DNA from: Buxus sempervirens | Lineage: Eukaryota > Streptophyta > Magnoliopsida > Buxales > Buxaceae | Length of the DNA: 64,000 nt | Direction of reading: 5' to 3' | Assembly: GCA_947561395.2 (NCBI GenBank) | Contig: OX387188.1 | Span: 37,009,942 to 37,073,941 of the forward strand | In this document: positions 2,043 through 43,009 of the stretch, piece by piece | Numbering within the stretch: position 1 is the stretch's first letter | Layout of the letters: each line of letters starts with the position of its first letter | Made by a program: the position numbers and the translations under genes | The notes under the pieces: model-generated | What the model saw: only the letters and a program-made list of their open reading frames with translations | What the model was told of the DNA's origin: nothing | Database searches by the model: none

Positions 2043-2060
2043 TATAAATATATATACATA
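2043..2060 (-). promoter_or_regulatory. Putative TATA box of the MYB gene
   Basis: Read on the minus strand this is an alternating TA stretch ending in TTTATAAG. It lies about 65-80 bp upstream of the chosen MYB start codon at 1979, which fits a short 5' leader. Confidence 0.4.
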
Positions 2061-20178: not shown

Positions 20179-20997
20179 AATAAAAATATACGATAAGAAT
20201 AAAAAAAATTCTCATCCTACATTGTTAATTAATAATCTAAATAATTTCCATTTATCACTTATTTTTTCATCTTGATTTGTTAATATTAATAAATATCCAC
20301 ATGGTAAATGTAAATATTTTATTTAAGACAAGAAATTTTCTCAAATTTACACTTACAATTAATTGCATTATTTTTTTTTCATTTTATTTTTTTATATTTC
20401 TTTATATTTTTAACTTATAATTAATTGACTAAGTTTCTTAGTCCTTATCTTTTTTTTTTTTTATATTTCTTTATACTCATGAATTTGTATCATTGGTATA
20501 ATTGTGATCATTATCCGTTTTGTTTAAATAAATAGGATTTTAGTGCCAATACAAAAATTCTATTTTAGTTAGATAAGTATTATAAAAGAACTCTTTTTAT
20601 CATCTAACTAAATATCTTAATCAAATAAAGATAAATATTCTTTGTGTTATAAAATACTTGCAAGAGTATCCACCTATGTGATAATTTGGTAGAATTATCT
20701 GAATAATTATGTGATAAATATCAATTACTCATTGAAATTATCTTTTTTTTTTTATAAAGCTCATTTAAATTATCAATGTTAAATAAAATGGTAATTAATT
20801 TGTTTTCATCACACAATTATTATTAATGAGTTTATTAAATGTATTTCATGATATTAGTAATTTACTTTTATGTTTTTACTAAAAGTTTTCTTATGTGGAT
20901 AAATATTTGAAATTAATAGGGAAGGATATTTTAGGTATGTGAAAATAAAGAACACTTAAGTTATCTTGTGCTTTTAATAGTAGTATATATATATAGA

Positions 20998-21500: not shown

Positions 21501-21505
21501 GAAGG

Positions 21506-22597: not shown

Positions 22598-22605
22598 TCC
22601 CTTTT

Positions 22606-22623
22606 TGGCACGCCCGGTGGGAC
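22606..22623 (+). other. Candidate primer binding site
   Basis: TGGCACGCCCGGTGGGAC begins 9 bases after the 5' LTR and starts with the TGG expected from a tRNA CCA end. I could not assign the tRNA with confidence. The first 11 bases (TGGCACGCCCG) also occur inside the LTR near its 3' end. Confidence 0.6.
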
Positions 22624-22646
22624 CATTAGTCTTTGAAAGAGCACTA

Positions 22647-25600
22647 ATGGCGGCAAGAAGAAGTACTCGGCATGCTGAAAATGCAGCGCCAGAGGAACCT
22701 GCCGAATCTCAGGTAAATCCTCTTTATGCTTCAGAGGTCCCGGAAGAAGGACCTTCGAGTTCTCAGCCGGACCTTAATGAGCGACTTATTCAGGCCATAC
22801 AAGGTCTCAGCCAACAAATGGCAGGCTTTGGCCAGGGTATTAACAAAATTTCTTCTGATAATGCTAGAATCCTAGCGGTTTTACAGGAAGGTTTCTCTAC
22901 AATGGCAAGACCGGTCATGATGACCGAACGAGCCGAAACATCGGCTGCTGGGTCAAATGCTCATGAAAGGATAAATATCCCGGAGCAGCCACCAATCATG
23001 AACCTAGGTGTAAACGGCCGACACGAACAGGCCAACACCGCCGCTTTAAGAGGAGAAATACCTCCTGGTGTCCCAGTTCATCCCAATGTGCCTCCGATCG
23101 AGGTGCGACCCATGGGACAAAGGGAAGCACAGGAAAACCATAGAGAAGATATCGGGGTAAGAAATATGGCCGTAAACCGTAATTACATTCAAAATGTAAT
23201 TCAAGAAATGATCGGAGATCAATATCACCGACGAATGACTAGGCCAGTTTATAGGAAACCTTACCCAGGCTGGATTGACCAACAATTTGAATTCCCTAGG
23301 GGATACAAAATTCCCGAATTCACTTTGTTTTCAGGAGAAGGTCAACAATCTACTATTGAACACATTGGCCGATTTACGGTTCAATGTGGAGAGGCGTCCG
23401 GTAATGATTTCCTTAGACTTAGACTATTTGGAAACTCATTGACCGGGCAGGCCTTTACATGGTATATTACTTTACCGGCCAATTCAGTTACAAATTGGGG
23501 AATGATGGAAGAGAAATTCCACTCCCAATTTTATCGTACGGAGCCTGAAGTAACCATGGTTGATCTTGCCCGGTTAAGACAACAACCGGGGGAATCGGCC
23601 GATAAATATATTGCTCGCTTTAAATATATGAAAAACAAATGCCGGATTCTTTTACCAGAATCGGAATTTGCAAATTTGGCGTTAAATGGACTACACTTTG
23701 AACTCCGAAAGAAATTCGAAGGTGAACAGTTCGAAGACTTATTTGAGTTGTCGGCCAGAGCCACCAAATACGAGTGGCTATTACAGGAAGACAACGAAAA
23801 GAAAGTCTCATCTTACGGGTCTTATTACAAGGACCCGAACTTTGAATACGGAGTTGTAGAAGTCGTGGGAAAACAATCAATCACCTGCCCGATTCTTATC
23901 CGGAAAACCAAGGATACAGAGGCAACAAAGGAGACGAGTACTTTTAGCCGAAATTATTCCTTTGACATAAATAAGACGGCTGAAGTATTTGAATACCTCT
24001 TGAAACAGGGATTCTTCAGATTAACCAAAGACCATCCTTTTATCCCCGCCAATGTGGCGGCCAAGGGTAAAGCTTGTAAATGGCACGGGGTGAAAACTCA
24101 TGAAACTAATGAATGTACTGTGCTTCGTAATGTGATACAGGAGAATATTGATAAAGGGCTCCTGAAGTTTGCAGAAACCGACAAAGAGAAGATGCAGGTT
24201 GACACACAACCATTCCCTAAAGAGGTGTCGGCAAATATGGTTACCATTGGGTTGCCAAAACGCACTCCAGCAGTTAAGATCGACCTGGATGGATCTTCCT
24301 CAGGGAAATGGGGGAAAACAGCACAACCAGTGCAGAACCAGGTGAATTTACGACCAAGGAACCATTGGAGGTATCCACCTACACAAGGACGGTCATGGCA
24401 TCAAGAGAGGAAAGGTGAAATCTGGGGTGAATGGTGGCATAAGCTCAGACGCGAACCCAGAATGGAAGAAGACAGGAAACCAGAGCTCAATGAAAAAACA
24501 ACAAAGAAATTGGTTTTGGTTCCTTCTGAATTATCTTCCAATCAAGTTGCAACCAAAAAACGACTGGAAACGGTTGCTAAATCCTCAGAGGAGTCTTCCG
24601 TCAATAAAGATACATCATGCAAGATTCCGGAGAAAATAGAAATGTCACCAGGCCTCCTTTGCCAAGACTGCAAGCAAAAAGTGATAGCAGAATACCGGTA
24701 TTCCCAATACAAAGGGAAATCAGTCAAGCATGAAGATGCACGCCACACTCAGGGGGGCAAGAGACCCTTGTACTTAACATCTGGTAGACAAGTAGGCTCG
24801 CCGACAAGGACGGCAGCCACCTATAGCTCCGCTAGGGATAGCGGCTACATGACCTATGAGCAATACAGGATGGTAAACGGGGTCAAACCCAGGATGGTAA
24901 AACCACCTATTATCCAGGATGGTCACTGGAAAAGATTGACTCATCCTAAATTTCCTTTTCATGCGCAGGCAAGTATCGCAGAACTGACCAGAACGCAGAA
25001 GCGACGCTGGCAGCGACAGCAAGCTAAGAGGCGATACCAGGAACAGAGTACTGGATCATCCGAGCCATATTGGTCGTCTAGGTTTGTTGCCAAAAGACGC
25101 ATTCCGAAGCCACAAAGGCTCAAAAAGAGCCCGCCTGATTCACCAATCCCTCCAGACACCACGCCCGAGCACAATTCCAATGCAGTGACCGAAAGGTTGG
25201 TGTCGGACGAAGAGTTGACAGACAATTTCGCCGGAGGAGAGGGAGAACAATTGTTAGTTGAACAAATGTTAACAGAATACAGTAGAATCTCAACTCCGTC
25301 TACGATAGAAATAACAGAGGAATTGACGCTCGAAACTCCCAAAGACGAGATCAGTGAATCGCTGAGTCAACCTCCATTAAGTGCGGATGCATCAATCGCC
25401 GAAATCTGTTTCGGTCGGATGCCCCCAATACCACTTGACTGTCATATGGTCCTCACTTTACCTATGACTTTTGGGGCCAGCATGGAGTTACCACGTTTAG
25501 AGGAGATCCAGGAGGAGGAAGACCCAGTAGCTTTGTATGTGATTGATCCAGAACATCTCGAAGAAGAGAAAAAAGACCAGAAACTGGCCGATGGTGACAA

Positions 25601-26234
25601 AATCGGTCTGGTGGGAGAGGTATGTTTCGTTGAACCATCCTTAACCATGACTCAACATCTCAAACCTTTATTTATAAAGGCGCACATGAACGGGATCCCT
25701 ATCAATAGAATTCTAATTGATAACGGGGCAGCAATAAATTTCATCCCAATATCCACATTGAAGAAATTAGGTAAGTCTTATTCGGATTTAATTTCTTCCG
25801 AAATCACCGTCACTAACTTTGCAGGAGGTATTACAGGAACTAGAGGAATCCTCCCAATCGAACTAACGGTTGGGACACGGCAGTCTCTTACGGCATTCTT
25901 CGTAATTGAATCATCCGCCGGATACAACGCATTGCTGGGAAGAGATTGGATCCATTCAAACAAATGTGTACCATCTTCTTTGCACCAATCGTTGCTGTTT
26001 TGGAAGGATGGCAAGACCGAAGAAGTAAAAGCCGACCAGCGGCCATTTGCCGTGGATTCCAATGCCGCACATGCATCCCTTTATAACGAAGGGGTAAAAC
26101 CAATTTCATTTAGTGGATATGACAAGAATGGGCAGCCGATCACTTCAAGTTCGGCTATACTACAAACGGCGCAACTACAGATTACAGAAGTAGCCGCAGT
26201 CGCCGAACTCAAAGAACTACCAAATGATGGTTAA
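22647..26234 (+). CDS. gag-pro: Gag-protease polyprotein of the Tat element
   Basis: An ATG at 22647, just after the primer site, opens 1,195 codons. The frame extends upstream into the LTR, but only by non-ATG codons. Residues about 220-380 carry the retrotransposon Gag capsid fold signature (FRGD-like ring: GQAFTWY, then KFHSQFY, LRQQPGESADKYIARF). A single Cys-His stretch CKWHGVKTHETNEC lies near residue 480 and replaces a canonical CCHC knuckle. The middle is basic and low-complexity. The protease sits near residues 1000-1120: ILIDNGAAINFIP is the active-site loop (DNG in place of DTG or DSG) and ALLGRDWI the second conserved loop. The product should form the particle and cleave itself. 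It ends in TAA, overlapping the pol start by 11 nt in another frame. Confidence 0.9.
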   Translation: MAARRSTRHAENAAPEEPAESQVNPLYASEVPEEGPSSSQPDLNERLIQAIQGLSQQMAGFGQGINKISSDNARILAVLQEGFSTMARPVMMTERAETSAAGSNAHERINIPEQPPIMNLGVNGRHEQANTAALRGEIPPGVPVHPNVPPIEVRPMGQREAQENHREDIGVRNMAVNRNYIQNVIQEMIGDQYHRRMTRPVYRKPYPGWIDQQFEFPRGYKIPEFTLFSGEGQQSTIEHIGRFTVQCGEASGNDFLRLRLFGNSLTGQAFTWYITLPANSVTNWGMMEEKFHSQFYRTEPEVTMVDLARLRQQPGESADKYIARFKYMKNKCRILLPESEFANLALNGLHFELRKKFEGEQFEDLFELSARATKYEWLLQEDNEKKVSSYGSYYKDPNFEYGVVEVVGKQSITCPILIRKTKDTEATKETSTFSRNYSFDINKTAEVFEYLLKQGFFRLTKDHPFIPANVAAKGKACKWHGVKTHETNECTVLRNVIQENIDKGLLKFAETDKEKMQVDTQPFPKEVSANMVTIGLPKRTPAVKIDLDGSSSGKWGKTAQPVQNQVNLRPRNHWRYPPTQGRSWHQERKGEIWGEWWHKLRREPRMEEDRKPELNEKTTKKLVLVPSELSSNQVATKKRLETVAKSSEESSVNKDTSCKIPEKIEMSPGLLCQDCKQKVIAEYRYSQYKGKSVKHEDARHTQGGKRPLYLTSGRQVGSPTRTAATYSSARDSGYMTYEQYRMVNGVKPRMVKPPIIQDGHWKRLTHPKFPFHAQASIAELTRTQKRRWQRQQAKRRYQEQSTGSSEPYWSSRFVAKRRIPKPQRLKKSPPDSPIPPDTTPEHNSNAVTERLVSDEELTDNFAGGEGEQLLVEQMLTEYSRISTPSTIEITEELTLETPKDEISESLSQPPLSADASIAEICFGRMPPIPLDCHMVLTLPMTFGASMELPRLEEIQEEEDPVALYVIDPEHLEEEKKDQKLADGDKIGLVGEVCFVEPSLTMTQHLKPLFIKAHMNGIPINRILIDNGAAINFIPISTLKKLGKSYSDLISSEITVTNFAGGITGTRGILPIELTVGTRQSLTAFFVIESSAGYNALLGRDWIHSNKCVPSSLHQSLLFWKDGKTEEVKADQRPFAVDSNAAHASLYNEGVKPISFSGYDKNGQPITSSSAILQTAQLQITEVAAVAELKELPNDG

Positions 26235-29200
26235 ACCATCAGAAGTCGCAGAAGCCGTCGTAAGAAAGATGACGGCTTACATGCAGGAAGAAAAGATAGG
26301 GAAGTTGCAGCAGGAACAAGAATGGCTGGAAAACGGCGAGATAATGATAAACTCGGCCGAATTCATTAATGAACAAGAAGATGAAAGGGTACAAAACCGG
26401 AATGAGATTACTCTCGCCGACCTACAAGCAGCACCAGCCAAATTAGAAGACCTAAAGGTAGATACCCAAGATCCATTAGAAGAAATCAACCTGGGGACAG
26501 AGGCGGAACAGAAGCCTGTTTTCATGAGTAAGCTATTACCACCTTCGGTCAGACAAGAAATGAGATTATTGCTAACCGAATATTCGGACTGTTTCGCCTG
26601 GACTTATCAAGAGATGCCAGGATTGGACCGAAGAATGGTAGAACACAGGCTCCCTATCAAGCCAGAATTTAAACCATTCAGGCAACCTTCAAGGAGGATG
26701 GGTGACGACGTGGTATGTAAAGTAAAGGTTGAAATAGAACGGCTTCTATCAGCCGGATTTATTAGGCCGATACGATATGCCGAGTGGCTTTCGAACGTTG
26801 TACCCGTAATTAAAAAGAATGGTCAAATTAGAGTATGTATTGATTTCCGCAATCTGAATTCTGCAACGCCCAAGGACGAATATCCAATGCCGATCGCAGA
26901 CCTCTTAGTTGATAATGCATCACGGCATAAGTTTTTGTCATTTATGGACGGCCACTCCGGATATAATCAAATCTTCATTGCCGAGGAAGATGTAGCAAAA
27001 ACGGCGTTTCGATGCCCTGGAGCATTAGGAACTTATTGTTGGGTGGTTATGCCGTTCGGATTAAAGAATGCTGGCGCAACCTATCAAAGGGCAATGAATC
27101 TCATCTTCCATGACATGATCGGTCAAATACTTGAGGTATATATTGACGATGTTGTGATAAAGTCTCAAACCGAAATGGACCATTTGCAGCATTTAAAACA
27201 GGTTTTTGAACGACTTCGTAAGTACAGCTTGAAGATGAATCCATTAAAGTGTGCTTTTGGTGTATCGGCAGGAAATTTCCTAGGCTTTCTCGTACACCAG
27301 AGAGGAATTGAGGTCGATAAAAATAAAGCAAAGTCGGTCATAGAAGCCAAGCCACCAGCCAATAAGAAACAGCTACAAAGGTTGCTCGGCCAGGTGAATT
27401 TCTTGAGAAGATTCATTTCAAACCTGGCCGGGAAGATCAGGGTCCTATCCCCATTATTGAAAATCAAGAATACTGAAGAGTTTATTTGGAATGAAGACCA
27501 TCAAGCCGCTTTTGAAGGCATCAAACAGTATTTGGCAACCCCACCGGTTTTGGTGCCACCTTCAAAAGAACGGCCGCTAAAACTTTATATAGCGGCTTCG
27601 AGCGATTCAGTTGGAGTCTTGTTGGCCCAAGAGAACGATCAAGGATATGAGCAGGCCATTTATTACCTCAGTAGATTCTTGACTCCGGTGGAAGAAAGGT
27701 ACACTAATCTAGAGAAGTTGTGTCTAACACTCTATTATGCAGCTACCAAATTACGACATTATCTCCTGTCGGCCAAAGAAATTTTCGTCATAGCAGCCAC
27801 TGACGTGGTCAAGTACATGCTCACTCGGCCTACAGTGAGTGGTAGACTCGAAAAATGGACCCTGACTCTGATGGAGTTTGACTTTAAATATGTACCGCAG
27901 AAAGCGGTAAAAGGACAAGCATTGGCCGATTTTTTGGCCGATCATCCATCTAGTGTGCAGGAAAAAGAGTTGGATATCCCAGTATTTCATGCCAGTTTTT
28001 GCTATGCCGAATTCCAACCATGGACACTGGAATTTGATGGTTCAAAGACAGAGTTTGCTTCTGGGATCGGAGTAGTAATAACTTCACCCACTGGTGACAA
28101 GCACGAACATGCATTTCAGCTTGAAGAATTATCCACAAACAATCAAGCAGAGTTTGAAGCTACAATTATAGGGTTGGAAATTCTATGGGAAATGGGTGCT
28201 CGAGCAGTTAATATTGTTGGAGATTCCCAACTCGTCTTGAAGCAAATGGAGGGCATATATAACTGCAATAGCGAGTCATTAGTACTATTGCTACGAAGGG
28301 CGAGATTCCTGGCCCAGCAGTTCAATAGAATTGAATTCGAACATCGGCCAAGGAAGGAAAACTATCAAGCTAATGAACTGGCCCAGTTGGCATCTGGACT
28401 CAGGCTGCGCGATTCAGTTAGAACAGTGACCATACAATCTCTCCCCAACTCCGAGAAAAGACCATTTCTGGTGGATTCACTAGCATGTTGTAACCAGACA
28501 ATAAGACAGGATTGGAGAGGTGAGATCTGGGGATATCTTAAAGATCCTACTATAAAGACTAGCAGATCGACCAAAAGGAAAGCTGCCAACTATTTTATTC
28601 TGGGCGATGAGCTATATAAAAAGAGTATTGAAGACATCCCACTTAGATGTGTCAACCCAGCAGAAGCCATGTTAATAATGGCCGAGGTACACGAAGGGAT
28701 TTGTGGCGCACACCAAGCAGGAGTCAAGATGCGATGGTTATTGCGTCGGCATGGTTATTACTGGCCGTCAATCTTGAAAGATTGTCAGATGTTCGCTGCA
28801 GGATGTCAGGAATGTCAGAAACATGGACCAGTTCAGAGGGTGCCGGCATTCGAATTGCAAACCATAGTCAAGCCATGGCCCTTCAGGGGGTGGGCAATGG
28901 ATTTGATTGGAAAAGTGTATCCTCCTTCGACCGGTCTACACAACTTCATCATAGTAGCCACTGATTACTTCACCAAATGGGTGGAAGCCAAACCTTTGAA
29001 AAAAGTGGAACAAACGGATGTGATTGAGTTTATCAGGGAACAGATAATTCATAGATACGGTATCCCCGAAACCATCACGACCGATTCAGGTACCGTTTTT
29101 GTAGGACAAGAAGTGACTGAGTTTGCCAAAACATATAGCATCAGAATGATTCAATCTACACCCTATTACGCACAGGCAAATGGACAAGCTGAAGCAACGA

Positions 29201-29799
29201 ATAAGGTGTTGAAAAATATCCTAAGAAAGATGATTGAGGATAAGCCAAGAAGTTGGCATAAACTCTTATCTGAAGCATTGTGGGCGTATCGAATGTCTTA
29301 CAAGACGTCTATTGGAACTACCCCTTTTGCCTTAACCTTCGGTCATGAGGCAGTTATTCCGGCCGAAATCACGGTCAAATCATTAAGGGTGGCTATTCAG
29401 AATAATTTCACTCCCAAGGATTACACGGAAGCAATGTTAGTCGAATTAGAAGACTTGGGAGAGATGAGGAGGCTAGCCCTGGATCGGCAGAGAGCCCTCA
29501 AGCAAAGGATTGCAAGATCCTATAATCGCCGAGTGAAACACAAATCATTCGCTCAAGGAGATTTAGTGTGGAAAACCCTGCTGCCAATAGGGAAAAAGGA
29601 TTCTTTGTATGGAAAATGGTCCCCCACGTGGGAAGGACCATTGCAAGTCAGCAAGGTATTGCCCGGGGGGGCATACCATATACAGTCTTTGGATGGCCAA
29701 GAAAAGAAGATTATCAACGGCCAGTTTTTGAAACGGTACTTTCCTACTCTATGGGAAAGCCGCGAAATCAATAACCAACCTGAGGAAAATCAGGAATAA
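26224..29799 (+). CDS. pol: Pol polyprotein: reverse transcriptase, two RNase H domains, integrase
   Basis: 1,191 codons from ATG 26224, overlapping the gag-pro stop in the +1 frame. The reverse transcriptase spans about residues 150-420 (VCIDFRNLN near 204, PFGLKNAGATYQ, catalytic YIDDVV near 306). The first RNase H follows (about 440-580); its usual first Asp is missing (LYIAASSDSVG), as is common in this lineage. The second, archaeal-type RNase H at about 600-735 shows FDGS, NNQAEFEA and GDSQLV, but the last acidic position reads QANELA instead of the usual AD. Integrase at about 815-1090 has an HHCC zinc site (H..H..C..C in GAHQAG...CQECQKHG) and the DDE triad (MDLIG, TTDSGT, GQAEATNK). 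No chromodomain is seen at the C-terminus. No frameshift or stop interrupts it. Confidence 0.93.
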   Translation: MMVKPSEVAEAVVRKMTAYMQEEKIGKLQQEQEWLENGEIMINSAEFINEQEDERVQNRNEITLADLQAAPAKLEDLKVDTQDPLEEINLGTEAEQKPVFMSKLLPPSVRQEMRLLLTEYSDCFAWTYQEMPGLDRRMVEHRLPIKPEFKPFRQPSRRMGDDVVCKVKVEIERLLSAGFIRPIRYAEWLSNVVPVIKKNGQIRVCIDFRNLNSATPKDEYPMPIADLLVDNASRHKFLSFMDGHSGYNQIFIAEEDVAKTAFRCPGALGTYCWVVMPFGLKNAGATYQRAMNLIFHDMIGQILEVYIDDVVIKSQTEMDHLQHLKQVFERLRKYSLKMNPLKCAFGVSAGNFLGFLVHQRGIEVDKNKAKSVIEAKPPANKKQLQRLLGQVNFLRRFISNLAGKIRVLSPLLKIKNTEEFIWNEDHQAAFEGIKQYLATPPVLVPPSKERPLKLYIAASSDSVGVLLAQENDQGYEQAIYYLSRFLTPVEERYTNLEKLCLTLYYAATKLRHYLLSAKEIFVIAATDVVKYMLTRPTVSGRLEKWTLTLMEFDFKYVPQKAVKGQALADFLADHPSSVQEKELDIPVFHASFCYAEFQPWTLEFDGSKTEFASGIGVVITSPTGDKHEHAFQLEELSTNNQAEFEATIIGLEILWEMGARAVNIVGDSQLVLKQMEGIYNCNSESLVLLLRRARFLAQQFNRIEFEHRPRKENYQANELAQLASGLRLRDSVRTVTIQSLPNSEKRPFLVDSLACCNQTIRQDWRGEIWGYLKDPTIKTSRSTKRKAANYFILGDELYKKSIEDIPLRCVNPAEAMLIMAEVHEGICGAHQAGVKMRWLLRRHGYYWPSILKDCQMFAAGCQECQKHGPVQRVPAFELQTIVKPWPFRGWAMDLIGKVYPPSTGLHNFIIVATDYFTKWVEAKPLKKVEQTDVIEFIREQIIHRYGIPETITTDSGTVFVGQEVTEFAKTYSIRMIQSTPYYAQANGQAEATNKVLKNILRKMIEDKPRSWHKLLSEALWAYRMSYKTSIGTTPFALTFGHEAVIPAEITVKSLRVAIQNNFTPKDYTEAMLVELEDLGEMRRLALDRQRALKQRIARSYNRRVKHKSFAQGDLVWKTLLPIGKKDSLYGKWSPTWEGPLQVSKVLPGGAYHIQSLDGQEKKIINGQFLKRYFPTLWESREINNQPEENQE

Positions 29800-29946
29800 A
29801 ATAAAATATCTACTGTTCGGTATCTGCAACGCCAAATAAATGGTATTGTCAAATCGAGGAGCCGATATACAGTGCGGATTAGACTGAAATAGGAAATCTC
29901 TTCGAGATCCGCTCAGACCCATTGATCTTCTTTCTAACGATCGGTC

Positions 29947-29954
29947 TATAAATA
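29947..29954 (+). promoter_or_regulatory. Plus-strand TATA box downstream of pol
   Basis: TATAAATA in GGTCTATAAATACTAAGG, about 150 bp after the pol stop and 55 bp before a short ATG frame. It is a good consensus match inside the element and independent of the LTR promoter. Confidence 0.45.
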
Positions 29955-30001
29955 CTAAGGCAATGCTCGCCATTCTTCCAAGAAAGGAAAGAAGAAAAGA
30001 G

Positions 30002-30154
30002 ATGGCGAAAGATCAAGAGCCGACGACGGAGACGATCGAGGAAGAAGAAGTCAACAAAGCCGATGACTTCATGAGAATGGGCGGGATCGGAAAAGGCGAC
30101 TCTACTCTCGCTGACCCCATCACGGCTGGTCTTCGACCACCGAGTTCTGGGTAG
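30002..30154 (+). CDS. Short acidic ORF downstream of pol (50 aa), unknown
   Basis: An ATG at 30002, about 50 bp after a TATAAATA, opens 50 codons (begins MAKDQEPTTETIEEEEVN). Upstream in the same frame is another ATG at 29963. AATAAA signals follow at about 30400, 30460, 30513 and 30535 on the plus strand. Together they look like a small transcription unit inside the retroelement. The product matches nothing I recognise, and it could be a leader ORF or chance. It lies between pol and the convergent 3' end of the antisense PMD gene. Confidence 0.35.
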   Translation: MAKDQEPTTETIEEEEVNKADDFMRMGGIGKGDSTLADPITAGLRPPSSG

Positions 30155-30626
30155 AGACGAGAGTTCTTTCCTCCGACCAGCATTTACGCCGGTCGGAATA
30201 GTCGCCATCCCCCCCTCTTTCCTCTTGCCCCTTTGAAGGAATTGCCCCTCGCTAACACCGTCTATGGTTGGAGTGCGGAGCAATTTCAGGGGCATATCGG
30301 CCCCGGTTGTATTATCATACCCCGGCTGATACATCTGGCCTTGATTGTATGAAAGAGCCAGAAGAGCTCGGCTTTGGTTGTATGAAAGATCAATGTTGAA
30401 ATAAAAACATTCTTATTTTGTTTGTTTAGTTCTAATCTTTCTATGACAAGCAGTAGATATGAAATAAAACGAGTATGTTACGCATCCAAAAAGCATGCAA
30501 AAAACTACCGTTTAATAAAAGCCGAGGAATCGGCTGAATAAAGTTTAAAATGCCAGCCATATGGCATTATCATAAAAAGTGAATACCGAACAAACGGTAT
30601 GATTGTTTAGAAAAGGTTTTATAACC

Positions 30627-33381
30627 TTACCTTTCGAACCAAGTCTGAAATCGGGCATGATCATACTTCGCCCGCTCCAATAATAATTGCATCTCAGCTC
30701 GACGCACCTCCACCTCCCTTTCATCCCTCATGTGCTCCTCCAAACGGTGACGGCTCGATTCGATCAGCAGCATCTGAGTCTGGATAGATTCTTTAAGATG
30801 ATGTTCCTCAGATTGTAGCCGAGATAAATCGTCCGAAGCAGTATCTGATGGGTCACCAGCAATAGAGCCCTGGCCAAGAGAATTTTTATGAAGAGACCAC
30901 CTCAAAGTCTCCAAATGGCGATTATGACCATATACAGCACGAATTTCTTGACGGAAATCGGAACATCTCACGTTGACAGAACGGAGAAAGTCCATGGCTT
31001 CCCTTAGCTGCGGCACGGCACTGTAAAAACCAAGCATGGACATTAGCCGATCTCCGGTTGAACGATCCCCGCGAGAATTCATCACTATGGCTCTGCATAT
31101 CAACAATCGAACTTCTGACAATTCTTCGTCAGAAAGTTCTTCAGGCTGACGAAGAACAAAAGAGCGGAGTTCGTTCCAACTGTCAAAATCCGGAAGAAAT
31201 GCCGGAAGAAGGTCATGAAATTCGGGAGATGAAAGACAACGGTCTACTTCCATGAAGCAAAACCTGACAAATCCGAAGCAAGTACCAGGGAGGGGTCTAT
31301 AATTTTCTTCCTTGGCCACAGGAATTTTTGGCTCAGAAGGTAATTCACCAGAAGAAGAACCAGAGGAAGTAGCACCAGGAACAGTGGATGGACCAGCTTC
31401 ATCAACCACGGGACGAGGGAAGAAAGGAGCCGGCCTAGATGCACTAGGCAACGGATCGGTCGAAGGAGTGACAAATCGAGTTGAGGTTGGGGGACTAGCA
31501 TAATGAAATGCACGAGGAGGAGTCGGCATGAGAGTTGATCTACCACTACTCCCAGAATGAACGGGAGGCCCATGCTGAGGACGAAATAAATCGATGTCTT
31601 CTTCCTCGTCCGAAGAATCGTCAGCCACGACGACACGCTCACCTGGATGCTGAACTCGGAGTCGCAAACTGGAACGAGTAACGTAAGCACGACCATCCGA
31701 TACCTCACCAATCTTCCGTTTTTTCAAAGGCGACTGTTTGGAAGAAGGGTTGCTCCGATTGGCAGAAACCTTGGAAGGTCGCCGCCAGTTAAAGGTGACC
31801 GACGTCTCGGCTTTCTTTTTCTTGCTCTTCACATGGGAGGATCGAGGATCATCTAATAAAGAAAAAGAAAGTCAGACGCGACCGAATAAAGAAGATCAGT
31901 TTATAAAAACATAAAAGAAAGTTACCTGGGTAACAGGCCTCATAATACCCGTGGAGTTTGCCTATACTCGCTATATCGACCGCATTCGGTCGAAATAGCG
32001 CAGTATACGACTCTGCATCAAGCCGGACAAAGTCAGAGTAAAGCTGAGACCACCATCGACGAAAGGAAGGTTCAACTGAGGATTCCCGGGGAAGAGGATA
32101 ATTGCGGAAGCGAGCAGAAAGATCGCGGAACCGAGAAGTTGCTAATGACAGGTAACTAGGGCTCAAAACAGACCGAGAGCCACCATTGGTAGATGAAAAC
32201 ACCACCAGAGGAATGCCTTGGCCATAACCAAGTTGCCGACTGACGAAATGCGGCAGATATATTTCCACCCCTTCTCTTCTAGAAGTGGCAGGAGCATCTC
32301 GGTTATGCAAGCCAAAAGGAAGCTCACGGGCAATAAGAAAACTGGCCGTAGCACGTCGGCGAGTTTCTGGAGAAGAATTGATGGCGGCATAAAGGGGAGA
32401 CCCATGAAATTGGTCTAGAGAAAAGTGATGGAATAAAGGAGGATTATTTTCCTGTAGACCTACCAGGAAGAAATCAAGAACAGCCGTGAAAGACAATTGA
32501 ATAGGTGTTGCGGTAAGCCAGCGACGGCCGGCATAGTAATAATTAGGAAAAGGATTGTCTACGGCTGTACAGAAAAAGCCGGGAAAGTATTCATAAAACC
32601 AGAATTGTAAAAACCAAAGAGGGCCACTGGCAACCCCTAATCGGCCGAAAGACAGACTGTGTAAACCACGGTAGACCTGGCTGAGAAAGAAAGGGGCTAG
32701 AGCCAAACGGCGACCATGGGCCAGGGCTACCGCAATACCGGCAAACTCCTTTACCATCTGAGCAGATGGGCCACAGCAGAAAAAATGGCAAAGAAAAAAC
32801 AGCAAGAAAGAGCAATGCTCTTGAAGGGAAGGAGGATTATCGTCATTTGGAACTCGCTCAGCACGAACAAAGGTGCCGAAAGCAGAAGAAGCATGAGCGG
32901 TGTTAAAAACAGAAGATGAGAAAACGGACAGGGTAGAATCTACTTCTTCCCCAAGGACCGAAAGACCTGTGATGCAGCAAACATCCAACAGGGTCGGGGT
33001 CATAGGCCCATGGTAAAAGGAGAAGGTGTTGGAACCCCGACACCAGAAAAATGAGGCCACTCCAAGCAAAATAGGATTGAAGGGAATGTAGAAGGTGGAA
33101 TAGAAGATCATCTCCGCCAAACCTAGCCTAACCCAGGTCTCCATATAATAAGACCGTAAACGCTCAACCCATTTGTTCCACTCAGGGGAACACTTAGGCC
33201 AGGAGCGAGGAAGAGTAATCAGATTACCCCATCTCACAGGATCAGAGGCGCTGATCAAGTGGTAGGAAGAGTGCAGGACCTTTGGAGCCTTTTCCGTCTC
33301 GTCATCAGTGCATGGACCAAGAACAGGACCATCCTCACCATCAAGGAACAGATTCAAGTCGTTAGGGTTGTCGTCCGCCAT
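30627..33381 (-). CDS. Antisense PMD (plant mobile domain) protein, copy B, 893 aa
   Basis: Two exons on the minus strand, 33381-31926 and 31852-30627, join across a 73-nt GT-AG intron with frame kept. Exon 1 carries a plant mobile domain: WNKWVERLRSYYMETWVRLG, FYSTFYIPFNPILLGVASFF, and the hallmark MTPTLLDVCCITGLSVLGEE, followed by the longer second half (ALAPFFLSQVYRGLHSL, GPLWFLQFWFYEYFP). Exon 2 adds a basic, Lys/Ser-rich start (possible nuclear signal KKRK), an acidic DDSSDEEEDID stretch, Pro/Ser-rich linker, and a C-terminal coiled coil (about the last 80 residues). PMD proteins such as MAIN/MAIL1 act in the nucleus in gene silencing and genome stability, and PMDs are known from plant transposons. 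The ATG at 33381 is chosen because it matches the start context of copy A. An in-frame ATG exists at 33612. Confidence 0.8.
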
Positions 33382-33721
33382 GATCGATACTAGAAACCAG
33401 AGAAGAAAAGCTCGAAGGAAGAAGAAGACGAAACGAAACAAGGAAACGTCTGCAGGAAGGAGAGCTCGTAATGATTCAAAATATCGAGAAGGGCGGTGAT
33501 AAGACTGCTGTCTTCCCGAAAAAGATGTTGATAGTACGATTGCCTTCCCGAAGAAATCGAAACGGCGGCTCGATATCTTCTCGAAAAAAGCGTTTTTAAG
33601 GGTAAAGATCATACGGATGAATCAAATTGAAAAGATGACTGTGTCGAAAAAGGAGCCGATTCTGACGGCTAGGACAGTTGGCAAAATGGATTCCAAAAAA
33701 GAGTTTAATTCATTAAATGCT

Positions 33722-36700
33722 TTACAAAGAAGTATTTAAAATGGCAGAATATATACGGTCAAAAGACTCTTGGGCAGACCGTCTTTCTTCAACCAAAGTG
33801 GACCGAAGCAGAGAGGAACCTCGAGCCAACTCTATCTCCGATTTCAGCTCGTGGGAGATCTCGATGCACTGACGGGTCTTCTCTTTCAAGGTGTCATCAA
33901 TAGAGTTATGTGTACGAAGAAGTTCCTCCCGTTGATTTACAAGATTAGACCTTCTAGATTGAAACTCAGCAATCTGACGGTCGACCGCCGAAATGTCATC
34001 ATTAATAATATTTATACGGTGGGCCGCATCAGTAAACTGATGATGACAAATCTCGCGCTCATTCCTCAACTGTTGCAAAAGTTGATATCGGCCATCAACA
34101 GAATCGGCCGTATTACTCATTTCATGTAATTTGGCCGAAAGATGGTCAAAGACAACTTTATAAGGGTAGAGGAAAGTAAGTTGAGAGAACACCGATTTGA
34201 CCTCAGGAGATACAGAAGACAGATCCCGAAGTTGTGCAGCCAATGCCATCACACGGGTAAGAGTCTCTTCGGAAATACCAATTATTCCTGGAGAGAGGAG
34301 GCGAATAGTTTCCGATCGGATACTCGTTGGAGATAAGGGCTCAGATGAACCGTCAGATGAGAGAGTAGAACAGACATCGTTCAATATAGTGTCCAATCGG
34401 CCATCACCAGGGAGTGGTCCCGCAGCAAAAGAAGGAATAAGCGATGAACTGGAACTCCCCAAGTCGATAAGCTTTTGCTTCGACCGATTAATATCAACTT
34501 CCGCTGCTGTAACAGGAGAATCAGAAGGAATATCGGCCAAGGCAGAAGGGCCGGAAGGCCCAACAGAAATAGTAGACGTTGCAATCCCAACTACCGGTAA
34601 GGCTGCACTCTGCTCATATCCAGGAGGTAAGTCGGGAGACGGACTTCTTTCTGGAGAAACCTCTCGAATGGATAAATGCTCCTGATCTTCAGGAAGTGCT
34701 AAAGGGGCTGCTGCAGTGACACTACCAGGAGAATCCAATGCGTCGGTAGGAACAGAGAAATTGGCCGAATCAAAAACAGACATGGGATCAACAACCATAT
34801 CCGAAGAAGATTCCATGACATTGGAAGAAAAAGCAGTTGGACCCGAGGAACTCGAAGCCTAGAAGAATGAGGTGTCAGAAAGAAAAATCAAACTAAGAAG
34901 ATGAGCAATAAAGATTCAGTACCTTCCGAGGACGCCGTCGTAGTGGGACATCATCGGGATCCTCATCATCTTCATACGGGACAATCGAGAGAGGACATTC
35001 TGGTGACAACGCATCATCTTCGGCCAATTCCCCGGAAGGGGAAGCATGAGCCTCCAAGGTAAGAAACGGCGTTTCACCGGGTGGCCGTATACCTGAACTA
35101 ATATCTTCTTGGACAGGTTCAGGCAAAAGTGCAAGTGGACTAGCCTCCAAAGCTAGAGGCGGAACTTTACCTAATGACAGAAAAATTGAGTGAACATCAA
35201 GCGGATCAGAAGCAAGAAAGATAAGAATATACCTTCTTGGATAGGTGAAGCCGGAGGCTCAAACAGACCCATCCTTTCCAGATAATAATCGGCCGAATAA
35301 CGGCAGATATTGTTCCACAACGATTTCCACCAAACACGGAAATCACAGCGACAGTCGTAACGACGAGGAAGAAAGGGAAGTCGAAATTCAACGGCAGCAG
35401 CTTTATAAGCATCTTCCATGTCGGCAGCTTCGGCTACAGTGACAGACGGCCGATCAACAGGTTTGGTATTAACTGTGAACAAACCATCTACTTCTAATAA
35501 GGGAATCCTCTGTTCGCATTGAAATTGCCGGCCGACACAATTGGGCAAGTATACTTCATACCCCGGTTTCTTGTTAATTGACTTCACAGCATAATTTAAA
35601 TTTCGAGCCTTTAGAAAACTGGCCCAGATAAGATGCTGCTCATCAGTTATGTCATCCACCATTGAAAGGAAACCGGGAGAATTCGAGGAGACTTCAAAAG
35701 GAGGAGTAGGAAAATAATGAAGATTGAAAAAGAAACGGAAACATTCGGAAAAAGATAGAACAGCTGGAGTGGCAGCCAAACAGGCGTGACCACCAAAATC
35801 AGAAGGCATGTTAGGAGTGATCGGTACTTGAGCATAAAACTGGGATGGAAAATAGTGATAAGCCCAAAATTGGAGGAACCACAATGGCCCCCCAGGATTC
35901 TGAAGGGAGCCATGAACAAACTCTTGAAGTGAACGGTATAAAACCGATAAAAAGTAAGGAGCAAGGGCAACTTCATACTCACCCAGAATTAACTTGACCA
36001 ATGAGTAATACTCTTTGGTAACTGCTTGGGCCTTGGAACAGAATACAAAGTTGCAGAAAAAATAAAGGAGAAAGTAGAAGTGTTCCACCTCATCTGCATA
36101 AGCTGGAGGCCTGAATTTGGCACAGTCCTTGATGTAGGACCGATAAGATGAATGAATTGAAGTCGGTGGAGATTCGCTCTCTGACGGTGGAGGTTCATGC
36201 TCGGACAGCACAATACCTTTTGGCCGAGAAGATCGTGCCTTCTTGAAAGCCCTGTTATTCTTCGTTGAGGGTTGCTTTCTTTTCTTTTCTACTTCTTTCC
36301 CTTTGTCACCCACTTCCATCGGAGGTAAATGCTGGTAATCCTTAAGGTCCGCCATACCGACCCGGATCTCATGACCAGTCGCGAAGAAACCAGTAATAAA
36401 GCAGACATCCATGACAGTAGGAGTCATCATTCCGCAAGGGAAATTGAAGGTATTTGTGTAAGTATTCCAGAATGAACTCATGGCGCAGAGAAGATCGCGA
36501 TTGCAGGGAATAGAATGACACGAAAAGATAATCATATCATAAATACCTGTCTTGCGCCAAACAACGGCAAAACGATCCTTCATGCGGTCAACCCAAGCTT
36601 TCCATTCGGGGTAAGCAGTCGGCCAATTTCGAAAGCGAAGAGGTAGATGGAGATTCTCTGCGTCAGTAAAGAGTAACGGGCCCCTCACTTTCTCAGTCGG

Positions 36701-36802
36701 GGCCTCCAAAGGAGCATTACTGGCACAAATGAAGGGGCCTACAGATATCGAGTTGCCGAAAACTTCGACTGTAGAAGGATAGTGTATGAGAGTGCCCGCC
36801 AT
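33722..36802 (-). CDS. Antisense PMD protein, copy A, 984 aa
   Basis: Three exons on the minus strand, 36802-35233, 35170-34923 and 34858-33722, with introns of 62 and 64 nt (GTATAT...TTAG and GTACTG...CTAG). The joined frame is open throughout. Exon 1 holds the PMD: WKAWVDRMKDRFAVVWRKTG, IFSCHSIPCNRDLLCAMSSF, MMTPTVMDVCFITGFFATGH, then GPLWFLQFWAYHYFPSQFYA. Between the two halves sits a basic insert with KRKQPSTKNNRAFKKARSSR, a likely nuclear localisation signal. Exon 2 is acidic (EDDEDPDDVPLRRRPRK). Exon 3 is Ser/Pro-rich and then a long coiled coil (about the last 160 residues). It shares its plan with copy B and must be an old tandem paralogue. A minus-strand TATA box at 36872-36877 lies about 70 bp upstream. 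Its role in the element is unknown. A silencing-related or anti-silencing function is a guess. Confidence 0.82.
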
Positions 36803-36871
36803 TGAAGACAAAGAGGAAGAAAAGATAAACAGTCAAAAAGAAAGAGTAAAGTAAAATCTCGGCTGTGATAC

Positions 36872-36877
36872 TTTATA
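36872..36877 (-). promoter_or_regulatory. Minus-strand TATA box of antisense PMD copy A
   Basis: Reads TTCTATAAAGTATCAC on the minus strand, 70 bp upstream of the ATG at 36802 and about 150 bp inside the 3' LTR boundary. It implies a promoter for antisense transcription separate from the LTR. Confidence 0.5.
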
Positions 36878-37009
36878 GAAGGCGAAATCCGAAAGGTTTC
36901 ATCATTACGATCGTAGGGAAACGGCGCGATCGTTTCATATCAAACGACGGACAAATTTTGAAAAACCCGAAAATACTTACTCATCACACCGGCCGATGAC
37001 GGCGTCACA

Positions 37010-37026
37010 AGTAAGTAGGGGGGCAA
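37010..37026 (+). other. Putative polypurine tract
   Basis: AAGTAAGTAGGGGGGCAA immediately precedes the 3' LTR. The G run adjacent to the LTR start is the expected site for plus-strand primer, although the tract is not purely purine. Confidence 0.5.
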
Positions 37027-38118
37027 TGTTTACACCCTATATAACCAACGAATAAGAGAAGGACATGTGGTGCCGAGGTGGCTTGGTTAGGCCACGGCCC
37101 GTAGACTTTGAAGGGTTGAGCCGGCCGCGTCAGCACGCATACAGAAGAATGCGGTTCGAGCCACGCAAGCCAATAAGACAAAACCATAAATATCAGAAGA
37201 TCGTGCCATCGGCCGTTCAAGAGTGGAACTATTTTTAGATCATGGCCGGGCGGTTATCACTTTGAAACAGAAAACTGAAGATAAACAACCGCCATGAAGA
37301 TCGTGCGAGAGTAGGAAGTTGAGCAACCGTCAAGGAGCGGCTATAAAAGGCCTCAATTCGAAGAGCTCGAGGACACAATCCACACAACCGCAACCGGTTA
37401 TTATATTATTTTGATCATCCGTGATCCTTTATCCCCTCTAATACAAACGGATAAATTAGGACTTCTCTCACTGCTTCCAGTCGCAGTGACATCTTCGACC
37501 CCTCTTTACTCCGATTAACACCAGAATCCTGCCACCGGAGAGTAAGTTGAGGCCGCCCCTGACTCGCAGTTCTGTCTTTACAGAATCCCGAGCAGCCGGT
37601 CCCGAGACTCGCTCTGTTCACGCCAGGTGACTTGTGTATTTTTGGATAAGCAGCAATCCAAGGTGAACCCCCTGAATCGACTTTGTAAGCAGCCGCCCCC
37701 TTCCTCCTGCGCTTATACCCGATTACGGCTATAAGACCAGGACAGGCCGGTCCTGCGAGCCCTGTCGGTTTTCTTTTGTACTTTTTGTTTCCATTTTGAG
37801 GATTATCTGTTGTCGCTTTCGGCTATTTGGCCGATTTTATAATAAAGGGATTTGTGTGCCGTTAGTTGCTTTTGCTTTCAAACACTTACAAGAACCCGAA
37901 ACGAAGACCGAACCCCTAGTCTTCATACCATCGCCTGACCGATTTTATTACAGGTGACTTGCAGTACGACTGAACCGATCCCGGTTCAGATTCGGAACAG
38001 GTGCCCGGGGTCAGGAATCGACTCGAAAATCATTGTATCAAACGATACTGGCACGCCCGCGTAGAGACACATCATCACCACAGACACGTGTCCACACCGG
38101 CCCATTTTTGGAGCAACA
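37027..38118 (+). repeat. 3' LTR
   Basis: 1,092 bp, with 6 base differences from the 5' LTR in a full hand comparison, all transitions. TATA box and AATAAA lie at offsets identical to the 5' copy (AATAAA at 37841-37846). It is followed at once by the GAAGG duplication. Confidence 0.93.
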
Positions 38119-38123
38119 GAAGG

Positions 38124-38187
38124 ACATTCTAAGCATGTAAAAATTGAAAATACTTAAAGTAGTTCATGCTTTTAATAGTAGTATAGA
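38124..38187 (-). mobile_element. Second Helitron-type 5' terminus (interrupted by the retrotransposon)
   Basis: On the minus strand it starts TCTATACTACTATTAAAAGC at 38187, nearly identical to the Helitron 2 start at 20997, and continues through CTTTAAGTATTTTC and ACATGCTTAGAATGTCCTTC up to the retrotransposon target site. The rest would continue at 21500. A further TCTATC at 38193 makes the exact first base uncertain. Confidence 0.5.
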
Positions 38188-41100
38188 TATAGATAGACAA
38201 GTGAAAACTTTAGAATTCCAGAAAACAAAGCGTAAAACTTGTTTGTGTAAATTACTTTTAGGATCTGTTTGTCTCCATATAAAATATTTTTTGAGTAAAA
38301 TATATCTAGGAAAAGATTTTCATTATTCTTTTTTTTTCTCTACTCTTTTGATGAGCCCAAAAGTAATATCTACGTAATAAAAGAATTTTTTGGTTTTCTA
38401 CCTCGTTTAACCTATATTGCAAGGGTTTGACAGTGATGGTGCTGGCAATGATGACAATGGTGATGGCAGGAAAAAAAATTTATATGGCTTAAAACCAAAA
38501 CGGATTACTAACAACCCAAAACCGACCATAATCGGTTTGGTTTGGTCCAGTTTGTCCATTTTAAGCAAACCATTGCCGTCCCTGCCTGCAAATAGGAAAT
38601 TATTATTTTTTTCTTAGTTTTCAGTAAACAGACAGAGCCCGCCTCCTCAAATATCCAAATCTGATCTGGTTCTCATCCGGATCTTATCATGTTAGCTTGC
38701 TTGTTTCCAGCACCAGTAGGAAGCATGTTTGGTCTTATCTGGGGGGGCCAGAAATGCTCCATTTTGATCCCCTACAAAGATTCAATTTTGAGAGGGAAAG
38801 TGGATACAACAAAGGCCAATTTGTCCTTTCCGCCTGTTAATTGGAGGAAGAGGAAGGCTGAAAAATCAGTTGGGATAGTCAAGACTTGTGTGTTGCTTGT
38901 CTTCATGACATTGGCTCCCCTGAAAGTGCATTGGAGTTGCGAGAGGGACAACTGAACCAATAGTTGGTGAGTCTGTCATAACTCATAACCCATCTACCGA
39001 AAGCACGCCTTGTTTCACGTTAGGTGGTGTCGGAAGCCCCATGTTCCCTGGTTTCCGGTCAATGGCCCTTTCCCATTTCACCTCACCTTGCTACCAAGTA
39101 CCAACAGCTTTATTAGCCCCAACTTTATTTTTCTCAATATGTATGGTTGTGGGGAATTGGAAGTTGAATTTATGTCATTATGACAATGTTTGGTTTCTCT
39201 TTTTTAAATAAATAATTTGAAAACGAAATGCATTTCAAATTGTTTTTGGAAACAAGTGTAAAGAAAACCAGTTTGATAAATTTAATTAATATCAACTAGG
39301 ATTTTAAAAATCAGTGAAAATGGCTTTGTAAGTCAAATGACTATGATTTAAAAAAATTTTATTGTGATAGTAATGGTGGTATTAATGATAATGACATAAA
39401 TGTTGGTGCATCGGCCGTAATGTACTTGGTGGTGGTCGTGGAAGTGATGCTATTAGTGGTGGTGGTGGTGATAGCGACAACACTGGTGGTAGTGACAATA
39501 GTAGTGATGGCAACAGTGATTATGGTTGTGACGATGGTTGTGATAGTGATGATTGTGTCATAGCGATAATGGTGATAGGGGTATATATGGTGACATTGCG
39601 GTGGTGCTGATGGTAGTGTTGTGGTGGTGGAGGTGGTAATGGTGGTGGTTGTAATAGTACTCATAAATGAAGTAATAAGTAATTTGATTTCTCAAACAAA
39701 AATTACAAAAATACCATTAAATTTAGAAAGTCTTCAAAAACTGAATCTTTCACTTTCTAAAAACACGACTGTTTTTTGTATATTTTTTTTCATTTGAAAA
39801 CTTCCTTACCAAACACAATTTTACCAAACACAATTTGCGTGTTAGAAGATTAAAAGAAGGTTGAAGCCTGTGATAAACATAACTGATATCAGCAAAAGAG
39901 AGGAAACTAAAATCAGATATTTCTACAAAGAATTACTTAATTGACATTGCATGTTATATGGATCATGTGACCCCCCCATTGAGCAATTGGATGATTTGAT
40001 CACCCTCTATCTACAAAAATGGCCAGCTTTAAGTTGCTTTCCATGACAATGACATGAAAAAGGAGCTATCTGTAACCCAAGAAAAAGAGAAAAAAAAAGG
40101 GGGACCATTCATTTACTTATCACAAAAAGGAGGTAGTGCAGTAGGTGATCTTGTCCTCATCTGTTGCACCTCTTTTATTTGGGACATTTAAGGACCAATT
40201 AGGTATACACATGGCAACCAATGTGTCATCCTCCAATATGATAGTGGTGCCATTCCATTAATGTTGCTATTTGCATGACTAGTAATAGAACAAATGTTGA
40301 TCCATCCACCATTGCTTTTTGAGGGGTTTACAGTGCAATGATTGATTCTATGCTGGTAGTAGGTTATCCATTTAAATTAAAAAAATGTGATTGAGCCTAG
40401 TTAACCCTCTTTTTGGTCATTTTGATTTAGTTCTCTTTCTATCTACTGGATTTAGAGATTGAAGAGTAAAGTCTGATATCAAAATTTTCTTGGTTGGACT
40501 CCTTGACTTCTCTTGCCTAAAAACTTTTGGAAACGTTTAAAGGGTAACCAATCTCTGTTGGACACATCAAAAGATTAACAAAGTATTGACATATTGATAT
40601 TTTTGAATAAATCATGTCAACTTTAATTTCCCGTTTATTGGTTTGGTGTGGTAAAAAGAGGAATGAAATTGTTTGCCACAAGGTTTGTACGACAAATCCT
40701 GTAGCCTGCGTGAGATGCTTCCGCGTGCAACATCTCACGTCCTCTGTTTTCACATTGAAAAAGCAAAGACTGTGAAACGTTGTTCATCTGACACAAGCAG
40801 CAGGGTCTACAATACATATCTAGGATAGATGATTTCACTCCTTCAAAAGAGATCTGTTATGAGTCCTTCCCTTTTGTCTCAAAAAAAAGGACTATAGAAG
40901 ATTTAAATCAGTCTCATTTCTGGACTCCTTTCATGTAATAATTGTGTTCTTTTCAAGAAAGTCAAAATTGATCATTAGTTTCTAAAATTAGACATGGATT
41001 AGGTTTTTACCAAAGGAACTTTCCCCTTCTTTTTTTACCTTCAATAGTAAGAGCAATGACTTTTAAATTGATATGGATTATGTTTGCCTTAAATGATACC

Positions 41101-42300: not shown

Positions 42301-43009
42301 ATAACAAGAAAGATATGGATTTGCAGGTAAATACACGCTCTGCGTAAGTATTCGCTCGCAGAGAAAAAGACCGAATAAGAGAAGAAACCAGTACGAAGCT
42401 TTTTCATGGGGCGTGGAAATCGTGTCGAGTCTGTCGACTGCCTCTCAAGCGTGTCGCTGCTTCAAACTTACCCACAGAACCACCAATCCGCTTTCGAAAC
42501 CGGAAAAGGAGACCTCTCGTCTCGTACTCGTTCGACCAGTGCTTTTCTTGTTCTTTAATATCTGCACCTGGCTTGGTTAACACACATTGAGCATTTTTGT
42601 CTCCTTTATTGAGTTCAGTACAAGTGAAAGCGAAGGACATCTGTGTAAGAGATCTGAACATCTTTAGGCACGTTTAGTGCTGTTTTGTTTTTTAATCTGG
42701 GTTTTGGGTATCTGTAAATGGGGTTTCGTTTACTGTTGATGGTTATTGTTATCGTACGTTGAAAATTCCATCTACTTCTCGGCTTCAGAGACTGAATTTT
42801 CGTTTCTTTCCCTTTGAAATTGAGATGGGTTTTTGTAGCTTGAATGTTGTCTGTTGCTTGGCATATCCCCTCGGGAAGTTACTATGTCTGTGAAGGTTAA
42901 CGACCTCTCCGTTTTGTTCTTGTCTTGCTGGAGGCGCAGAAGAGAAATGGTTTCGTCCCTGAATTGTGTTTTTATGTAATCTCTGTTGGCTTTGATTTTG
43001 TCGTGTGTA
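42301..43009 (+). promoter_or_regulatory. Promoter / 5' UTR region of SPL6
   Basis: No TATA box was clearly identified. The segment from about 42400 is less AT-rich and leader-like. A GGATTTGCAGGTAAAT at about 42318 could be a splice junction of a leader, which is untested. Confidence 0.3.

Follow-up and report, generated by a model that had tools for sequence, protein, structure and literature searches.

Purifying selection on two diverged antisense plant-mobile-domain genes in a young Tat-type retrotransposon of Buxus sempervirens

Antisense open reading frames (ORFs) are common in Tat elements, and surveys leave their role open. Extra ORFs of Ogre/Tat retrotransposons that encode a plant mobile domain (PMD) were reportedly treated by Steinbauerova in 2011, a work known here through the papers which cite it. 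The locus analysed in the present work, which lies in a 64-kb window (the whole stretch of Buxus sempervirens DNA under study), raises the question of what two such genes, placed side by side and antisense between the pol gene and the 3' LTR of a single retrotransposon, are doing there: whether they encode proteins that selection maintains, and if so what the role of those proteins would be. Antisense ORFs have been treated in general by Vicient 2025 (PMC11963269) and by Vicient and Casacuberta 2020 (PMC7264820), and the PMD is described as the commonest atypical domain in plant LTR-element consensuses (PMC9289625); these and the other papers cited below are drawn on in part.

The element and the layout of its antisense genes

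The LTR retrotransposon occupies positions 21506-38118 of the window (16.6 kb) and is a Ty3/gypsy element of Tat type. Its 5' LTR (21506-22597, plus strand, 1092 bp, TG...CA) and its 3' LTR (37027-38118, plus strand, delimited by LTR comparison) are 99.45% identical, the differences amounting to 6 of 1092 sites, all six of them transitions, and the flanking sequence holds the TSD GAAGG on the left (21501-21505) and on the right (38119-38123). Substitution rates in the literature run from 7e-9 to 1.3e-8 per site per year, and at such rates the LTR divergence would correspond to an age of roughly 0.2-0.4 million years. A polypurine-tract-like stretch, read from the sequence, adjoins the 3' LTR (37009-37026, plus strand).

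The gag-protease ORF (22437-26234, plus strand, measured stop to stop) starts inside the LTR and has Pfam matches to Retrotrans_gag and to gag-asp_proteas, the latter below its cut-off; it overlaps the pol ORF (26194-29799, plus strand, also stop to stop) at 26194-26234 in a different frame. Pol contains RT, RNase H, an additional RNase H (RVT_3) and integrase, with the Pfam match to RVT_3 at residues 614-732, between RT_RNaseH (459-562) and the integrase zinc domain (821 on). Because an additional RNase H between RNase H and integrase is described as a mark of angiosperm Tat (Ogre/Retand) elements (PMC6317226), this domain order places the element in the Tat clade. The Ogre trait, a PMD extra ORF (PF10536), is present in it, and the Retand trait is absent, in that the exons of the two antisense genes have no PF04195 (TRP28) match at E up to 1, with the limitation that most matches beyond about 0.1 are removed by the filters of HMMER. 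An earlier note, made from the letters of this locus, had called the element a young Tat retrotransposon, and the LTR identity, the TSD and the Tat order of the pol domains all bear this out.

Between the end of pol (29799) and the start of the 3' LTR (37027), two genes lie on the minus strand: pmdB (984 aa, 36802-33722) and pmdA (893 aa, 33381-30627), hereafter genes B and A. From Pfam matches, exon joins, composition and alignment, gene B consists of exon 1 (35233-36802), which holds the start codon and the PMD, a 62-nt intron (35171-35232), exon 2 (34923-35170), a 64-nt intron (34859-34922) and exon 3 (33722-34858), which holds a Ser/Pro-rich linker and a C-terminal coiled-coil-like region. 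Gene A consists of exon 1 (31926-33381), again with the start codon and the PMD, a 73-nt intron (31853-31925) and exon 2 (30627-31852), with a Ser/Pro-rich linker that is basic and then acidic, followed by a C-terminal region. The 340-bp spacer between the genes (33382-33721, minus strand) is the presumed promoter of gene A, and no TATA-like box was found in it. Upstream of gene B, within the element and outside the LTR, a TATAAA box (36872-36877, minus strand) lies about 70 bp before the ATG; every base of it is kept in at least 22 of the 23 copies compared below, and it is present in the diverged copy L052 as well. The two intact multi-exon genes that the earlier note had placed antisense between pol and the 3' LTR were reproduced exactly in coordinates, strand, joins and protein lengths.

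All three introns are GT-AG, and because none has a length divisible by 3, the frames are joined only by splicing. In the 20-copy alignment introduced below, all 60 introns keep their GT and AG, and none of the 20 copies has lost the ATG of either gene. An open stretch of 590 aa is the longest on the antisense strand of 29879-37026, as against a maximum of 246 in 300 first-order Markov shuffles. Reverse transcription of the sense genomic RNA leaves antisense introns in place, so that their survival is consistent with antisense expression of the genes.

Protein domains and the relationship between the two genes

The profile check proposed in the earlier note confirms the PMD identity of both proteins, which score far above the curated cut-off of 34.9 for PF10536 (107.7 bits, E 9.2e-31, for gene A; 110 bits, E 1.8e-31, for gene B). 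The two PMDs are 29% identical over 478 columns (E 4e-54), and the alignment locates a basic insert in that of gene B. In both genes the first intron lies just after the PMD and is of phase 1, the codon being split after its first base, which suggests that A and B derive from one intron-bearing ancestor.

Downstream of the PMD the linkers have Ser/Pro contents of 28% and 30%. The tail of B has a clear coiled-coil-like heptad pattern (0 of 200 shuffles as good), while the pattern in the tail of A, matched by 6 of 200 shuffles, is no better than that of the A PMD taken as a control (5 of 200). Homology between the two C-terminal tails was suspected from an alignment and had to be discarded, as the hhalign score is within the range of 10 shuffled sequences; by this comparison the tails are not detectably homologous. 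The “same plan” that the earlier note had ascribed to both genes consequently holds for the PMD with the phase-1 intron that closely follows it, but not for the tails, and the coiled coil is clear for B only. Its further description of two diverged full-length copies side by side agrees with the divergence of the PMDs and with the open state of both frames in the window copy.

Basic NLS-like clusters can be read by eye in both products. As a separate observation, there is a PDB profile match to MBT-repeat chains of L3MBTL3 (E 1e-5, profile positions 20-59); across the eight proteins checked, no MBT domain is found in Pfam at E up to 0.1.

Selection on the genes and retention of the pair

Sister copies were taken from the same 676.5-Mb genome as the window. 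The A+B region of 20 of them was picked by PMD matches, 12 having a match to both A and B and 8 a match to A, and 19 of the 20 align end to end at 92-98% identity. The remaining one, L027, is without most of B and was left out, so that the 20-copy alignment comprises 19 sister loci and the window. For pol, 16 copies were used, with the omission of L016, L021, L022 and L023, whose pol region is partly non-homologous, and a 23-copy set was formed by adding L053-L055, which were picked by RT match. Omega sets the numbers of synonymous and nonsynonymous changes observed against the numbers expected when the same base changes are placed randomly on sites of the same trinucleotide context; a variable site was used only if it had a single alternative base and gaps in no more than 2 copies.

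Among variants shared between copies, omega is 0.20 for A (191 sites, 55 nonsynonymous and 136 synonymous, against neutral expectations of 124.8 and 61.7) and 0.35 for B (221 sites, 95 nonsynonymous, 124 synonymous and 2 stops, against 146.9 and 67.8), and it is 0.07 for pol (157 sites, 16 nonsynonymous, 139 synonymous and 2 stops). The values for A and B are 0.21 and 0.36 when the analysis is restricted to the 16 copies used for pol, and control readings in wrong frames and on the sense strand give shared-variant values of 1.47-4.09. Private variants, which include post-insertion decay, are more relaxed (A 0.57, B 0.64, pol 0.39). Pairwise NG86 dN/dS is 0.18 for A and 0.28 for B (253 pairs each) and 0.08 for pol (120 pairs). 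Both genes are under codon-level purifying selection that is weaker than that on pol, a conclusion which is well supported, and the dN/dS comparison across sister copies that the earlier note had called for comes out well below 1 for each of them.

When the genes are divided by region, the shared-variant omega is 0.18 in exon 1 (PMD), 0.31 in the linker and 0.14 in the tail of A, and 0.27, 0.67 and 0.32 respectively in B. The B linker is not clearly different from neutral in its shared variants (P 0.079), and its private variants look neutral (1.13). The tails lie outside PF10536 and were not used in choosing copies, so the signal in them was not created by selecting copies on a PMD match.

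Constraint at the codon level coexists with decay of individual copies: the frame of A runs open to the end in 10 of 20 copies and that of B in 7 of 20, both being open in only 4 of 20. Of the RT-picked copies, L053 and L054 have an open A, and L054 and L055 an open B. Pol has decayed too, its frame being open in just 7 of the 16 copies in which the region can be compared, so that the antisense genes are not exceptional in this respect. Across the 23 copies, in which the clusters of A and of B coincide, the exons contain 12 indels, of which 2 are shared (6 bp each), 1 is private and of 6 bp, and 9 are private and not a multiple of 3, while 954 bp of noncoding sequence contains 11 shared indels that are not multiples of 3. 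Pairwise divergence is 0.023-0.034 at codon positions 1+2 and 0.063-0.076 at third positions. In the introns, spacer and flanks it is 0.029-0.062, which does not exceed the third-position level, so that these stretches do not furnish a fast neutral yardstick.

These patterns also bear on a reading in which the antisense transcripts act mainly as RNA, pairing with the genomic RNA to give dsRNA and small RNAs and so limiting copy number. The antisense position forces an overlap with the genomic RNA, 175 PHAS loci at PMD genes are described in tea (PMC10673657), and regulatory antisense RNA is discussed in PMC7264820, but an RNA-only role leaves the codon-level constraint, the frame-keeping shared exon indels and the conserved splice sites unexplained. 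A mainly RNA-acting function is accordingly judged very unlikely, and an RNA role may coexist with a protein role of A and B.

Retention of the genes was assessed with copies picked blind to them. A 501-bp RT query yielded 942 candidates, the best 40 of which, 97-100% identical and so favouring close, young copies, have the A tail listed in 39, the B tail in 35 and both in 35, in the expected direction; among the matches listed, 5 of the 40 are without the B tail, and such misses may be overstated. After 3 fragments had been dropped before pairing, 101 of 104 A-tail rows were kept. Among the 109 B-tail matches listed, 80 are followed on their own strand by an A tail at a distance of 2-8 kb, which in 73 cases is 3075-3105 bp. 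Among the matches listed, the scored stretch is free of stops in 79 of the 109 for the B tail, in 74 of the 101 for the A tail and in 65 of the 82 for B exon 1.

A second, diverged subfamily is represented by L052, whose B tail was used as a further query; 45 of its 107 rows, hand-picked as second-subfamily, were used, the rest being taken as rows already used. With this query 10 of 21 unpaired A matches gain a B partner, all ten belonging to the 12 whose identity is 84% or less. Between the window and L052, dS is 0.33 for B exon 1, 0.52 for B exon 3 and 0.92 for the first 126 codons of A, and the corresponding dN/dS values are 0.20, 0.34 and 0.14; L052 keeps the B splice sites together with the TATA box and has one stop in B exon 1. 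The occurrence of pairing in this subfamily indicates that the pair has been maintained through substantial divergence, and the A+B pair is a property of the family, present in most of the copies examined.

The possibility that A and B are redundant dose copies, and not partners with different jobs, has in its favour that both carry a PMD closely followed by a phase-1 intron, and also L027, in which an in-frame B/A fusion removed most of B although its RT stretch still matches the window's at 99% identity. Against it are the low identity of the PMDs, the tails without detectable homology and the separate constraint on each gene, and redundancy is on this evidence improbable.

At least three other element types in the same genome (L048, L049 and L051) carry an antisense PMD ORF downstream of an integrase region that is 36-41% identical to the integrase region of the window element. 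The stretches seen of these types hold a single antisense PMD gene, so that a pair is not needed in general. In a tree of 16 rows, A, B, the Rosa chinensis protein P0004 and the Rubroshorea protein P0001 group together (95/98), apart from the L048/L049/L051-type elements and from the plant PMD proteins P0002 and P0003. The tree does not settle the branching order of A, B and the Rosa chinensis protein and, with its long branches, is provisional. A search of a database of 5.8 billion proteins gave 3 matches for the A PMD and 4 for an A/B alignment query, two of which are members of the query, while none of the 4571 candidates for B (984 aa) was a match; IMG/VR scans with B and with pol confirmed no relative.

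PMD genes exist in hosts too, and MULEs are reported to have captured PMDs (PMC5418596), which would fit a pair of captured gene copies hitchhiking as passengers. Such a reading is opposed by the shared-variant omega of both genes, by the finding of both genes together in 35 of the top 40 RT matches and again in a second subfamily, and by the recurrence of antisense PMDs in other element types of the genome, and the chance that it is right is negligible. Selection on both genes and retention of the pair indicate instead accessory proteins under selection, and A and B are almost certainly selected protein-coding accessory genes. The earlier note's proposal that the proteins are under selection in the element is in this way sustained, by omega below 1 in both genes with controls above 1, by the frame-keeping shared indels and conserved splice sites, and by co-retention in 35 of 40 copies.

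Published systems and possible roles of the pair

A PMD is present in 57% of Ogre elements (Neumann 2019, PMC6317226), and the present element resembles these in having a PF10536 extra ORF in a Tat-clade setting, but differs in that two diverged, full-length, intron-bearing genes are adjacent and selection has been measured on both. Gypsy elements have the PMD clades PMD-A1 and PMD-A2 to themselves, the Arabidopsis proteins MAIN and MAIL1 belonging to clade PMD-C (Ikeda 2017, PMC5418596); that paper likewise places PMDs in gypsy, and the sections of it drawn on here make no mention of a paired arrangement. In Retand, an antisense TRP28 ORF is found in 97% of young clusters and the region from pol to the 3' LTR measures 2.9-6.6 kb (Vicient 2025, PMC11963269). 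The window element shares with those elements a long region of this kind with antisense ORFs, but its region is longer, at 7.2 kb, and A and B are without PF04195. Gene23 of maize Grande is also antisense between pol and the 3' LTR (PMC7264820), where the gene's own promoter and nuclear product are described as features of Grande; it differs in being a single gene, reported to have no clear similarity to known proteins and hence no PMD. Earlier publications have already described antisense PMD ORFs of Tat/Ogre elements and PMD clades specific to gypsy, and have put forward the idea of counter-silencing. Neither two PMD genes in one element nor codon-level selection on such genes was found described in the literature searched; the apparent novelty is the retained, diverged PMD pair, with the reservation that a literature search is not proof of absence.

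The closest host parallel is provided by MAIN and MAIL1, which bind each other and PP7L and act in TE silencing (PMC8616336, PMC7156037). The likeness is that there are two PMD proteins, which in Arabidopsis act jointly in TE silencing (PMC8616336); the differences are that MAIN and MAIL1 are host genes of clade PMD-C (PMC5418596), and that A and B are known here from sequence alone. An anti-silencing role has been speculated for MULE-captured PMDs (Ikeda 2017, PMC5418596), and TE-encoded PMDs in general have been proposed as counter-silencing factors (2021 review, PMC8616336), although the molecular function of the PMD is not established even in Arabidopsis (PMC8616336).

By analogy with MAIN and MAIL1, A and B would most likely act in trans as non-redundant partners; their products, with the basic NLS-like clusters, would be nuclear, and there they would bind or displace host components of PMD/PP7L type, so that copies of the family stay transcribable. 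Because the A/B PMDs stand apart from two other plant PMD proteins in the small, long-branched tree, an interaction with host PMD/PP7L components is not implied by similarity, and this counter-silencing mechanism is possible rather than probable. The best explanation overall, which falls somewhat short of an even chance, is that a young Tat element carries two spliced antisense accessory genes whose products serve as trans partners against host silencing. A more specific version, in which an anciently diverged A+B heteromer is kept by selection as an element-borne two-subunit PMD system, would make it the counterpart or antagonist of host MAIN-MAIL1-PP7L, with antisense expression allowing the introns to survive retrotransposition; in this full form the proposal is doubtful.

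Selection on both genes would also be expected if the proteins served the replication cycle in the manner of retroviral accessory proteins, either through the pre-integration complex, in nuclear import or chromatin targeting, or through a part in particle assembly, and other antisense accessory proteins of Tat type are nuclear or predicted to bind DNA (PMC7264820, PMC11963269). Nothing was found that ties the PMD to integration, however, and host PMD proteins work in gene expression and TE silencing (PMC5418596, PMC7156037, PMC8616336), so a replication-cycle role, while a serious possibility, is somewhat unlikely.

The dozens of near-identical copies in this genome constitute a clean natural test of selection, which both proteins pass. 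If the pair does counter PMD-based host silencing, it would offer a tractable system for the study of PMD function, and it would bear on whether the PMD silencing factors of plant hosts were domesticated from gypsy elements.

Coding junction and insertion site of the element

The gag-pro and pol ORFs of the Tat-type element (window 21506-38118) overlap at window 26194-26234 and lie in different frames, the shift being +1 by coordinates, and they must be connected either by frameshifting or by an intron. This arrangement departs from that of Ogre elements, in which gag-pro and pol are usually spaced apart. On either side of the element there are 73-bp stretches which are 78% identical to each other (window 20921-20993 and 38119-38191), the second of which directly adjoins the 3' LTR. 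The neighbourhood also contains an ORF on the minus strand (window 1075-2084) and another on the plus strand (window 42980-43681), which we take to resemble an R2R3-MYB and an SPL-type gene, and the element seems to sit between host genes.

Hybrid and possibly mosaic copies of the antisense genes

In a sister copy of the element (L027, G000:C10:31469966-31476596), approximately 3.4 kb is missing between the plant mobile domain (PMD) of pmdB and that of pmdA, which leaves an in-frame hybrid exon that joins the N-terminus of pmdB (~100 residues) to pmdA from about residue 98 onward. The region upstream of this exon is that of pmdB, and a stop is present in exon 2. At C3:33393568-33397014, the PMD of pmdB is likewise followed, less than 1 kb away, by the C-terminal region of pmdA. 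When a diverged-subfamily copy (L052) is compared with the window, dS is unequal within one element, at 0.92 for the start of pmdA and 0.33-0.52 for pmdB; this inequality may reflect mosaic exchange between subfamilies.

Other PMD-bearing loci and small RNAs

Different element types in the same genome (L048, L049, L051 and L007/L008) carry one antisense PMD gene each within the stretches examined, frequently as a single long ORF, and the integrase region preceding this gene in L048, L049 and L051 has only 36-41% identity to the window's. The genome's best PMD matches (L001-L005) are a 236-aa open frame at five places, one of which is listed with TAG; the L001 and L002 proteins are nearly identical, and L001 has a DUF1985 similarity under the cut-off. 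These loci are possibly of MULE type or a multiplied gene.

In tea, 175 PHAS loci at PMD genes are reported in PMC10673657; in the passages covered, a link between these loci and antisense PMD genes in retrotransposons was not found drawn. Antisense PMD genes within retrotransposons would be natural sources of dsRNA.
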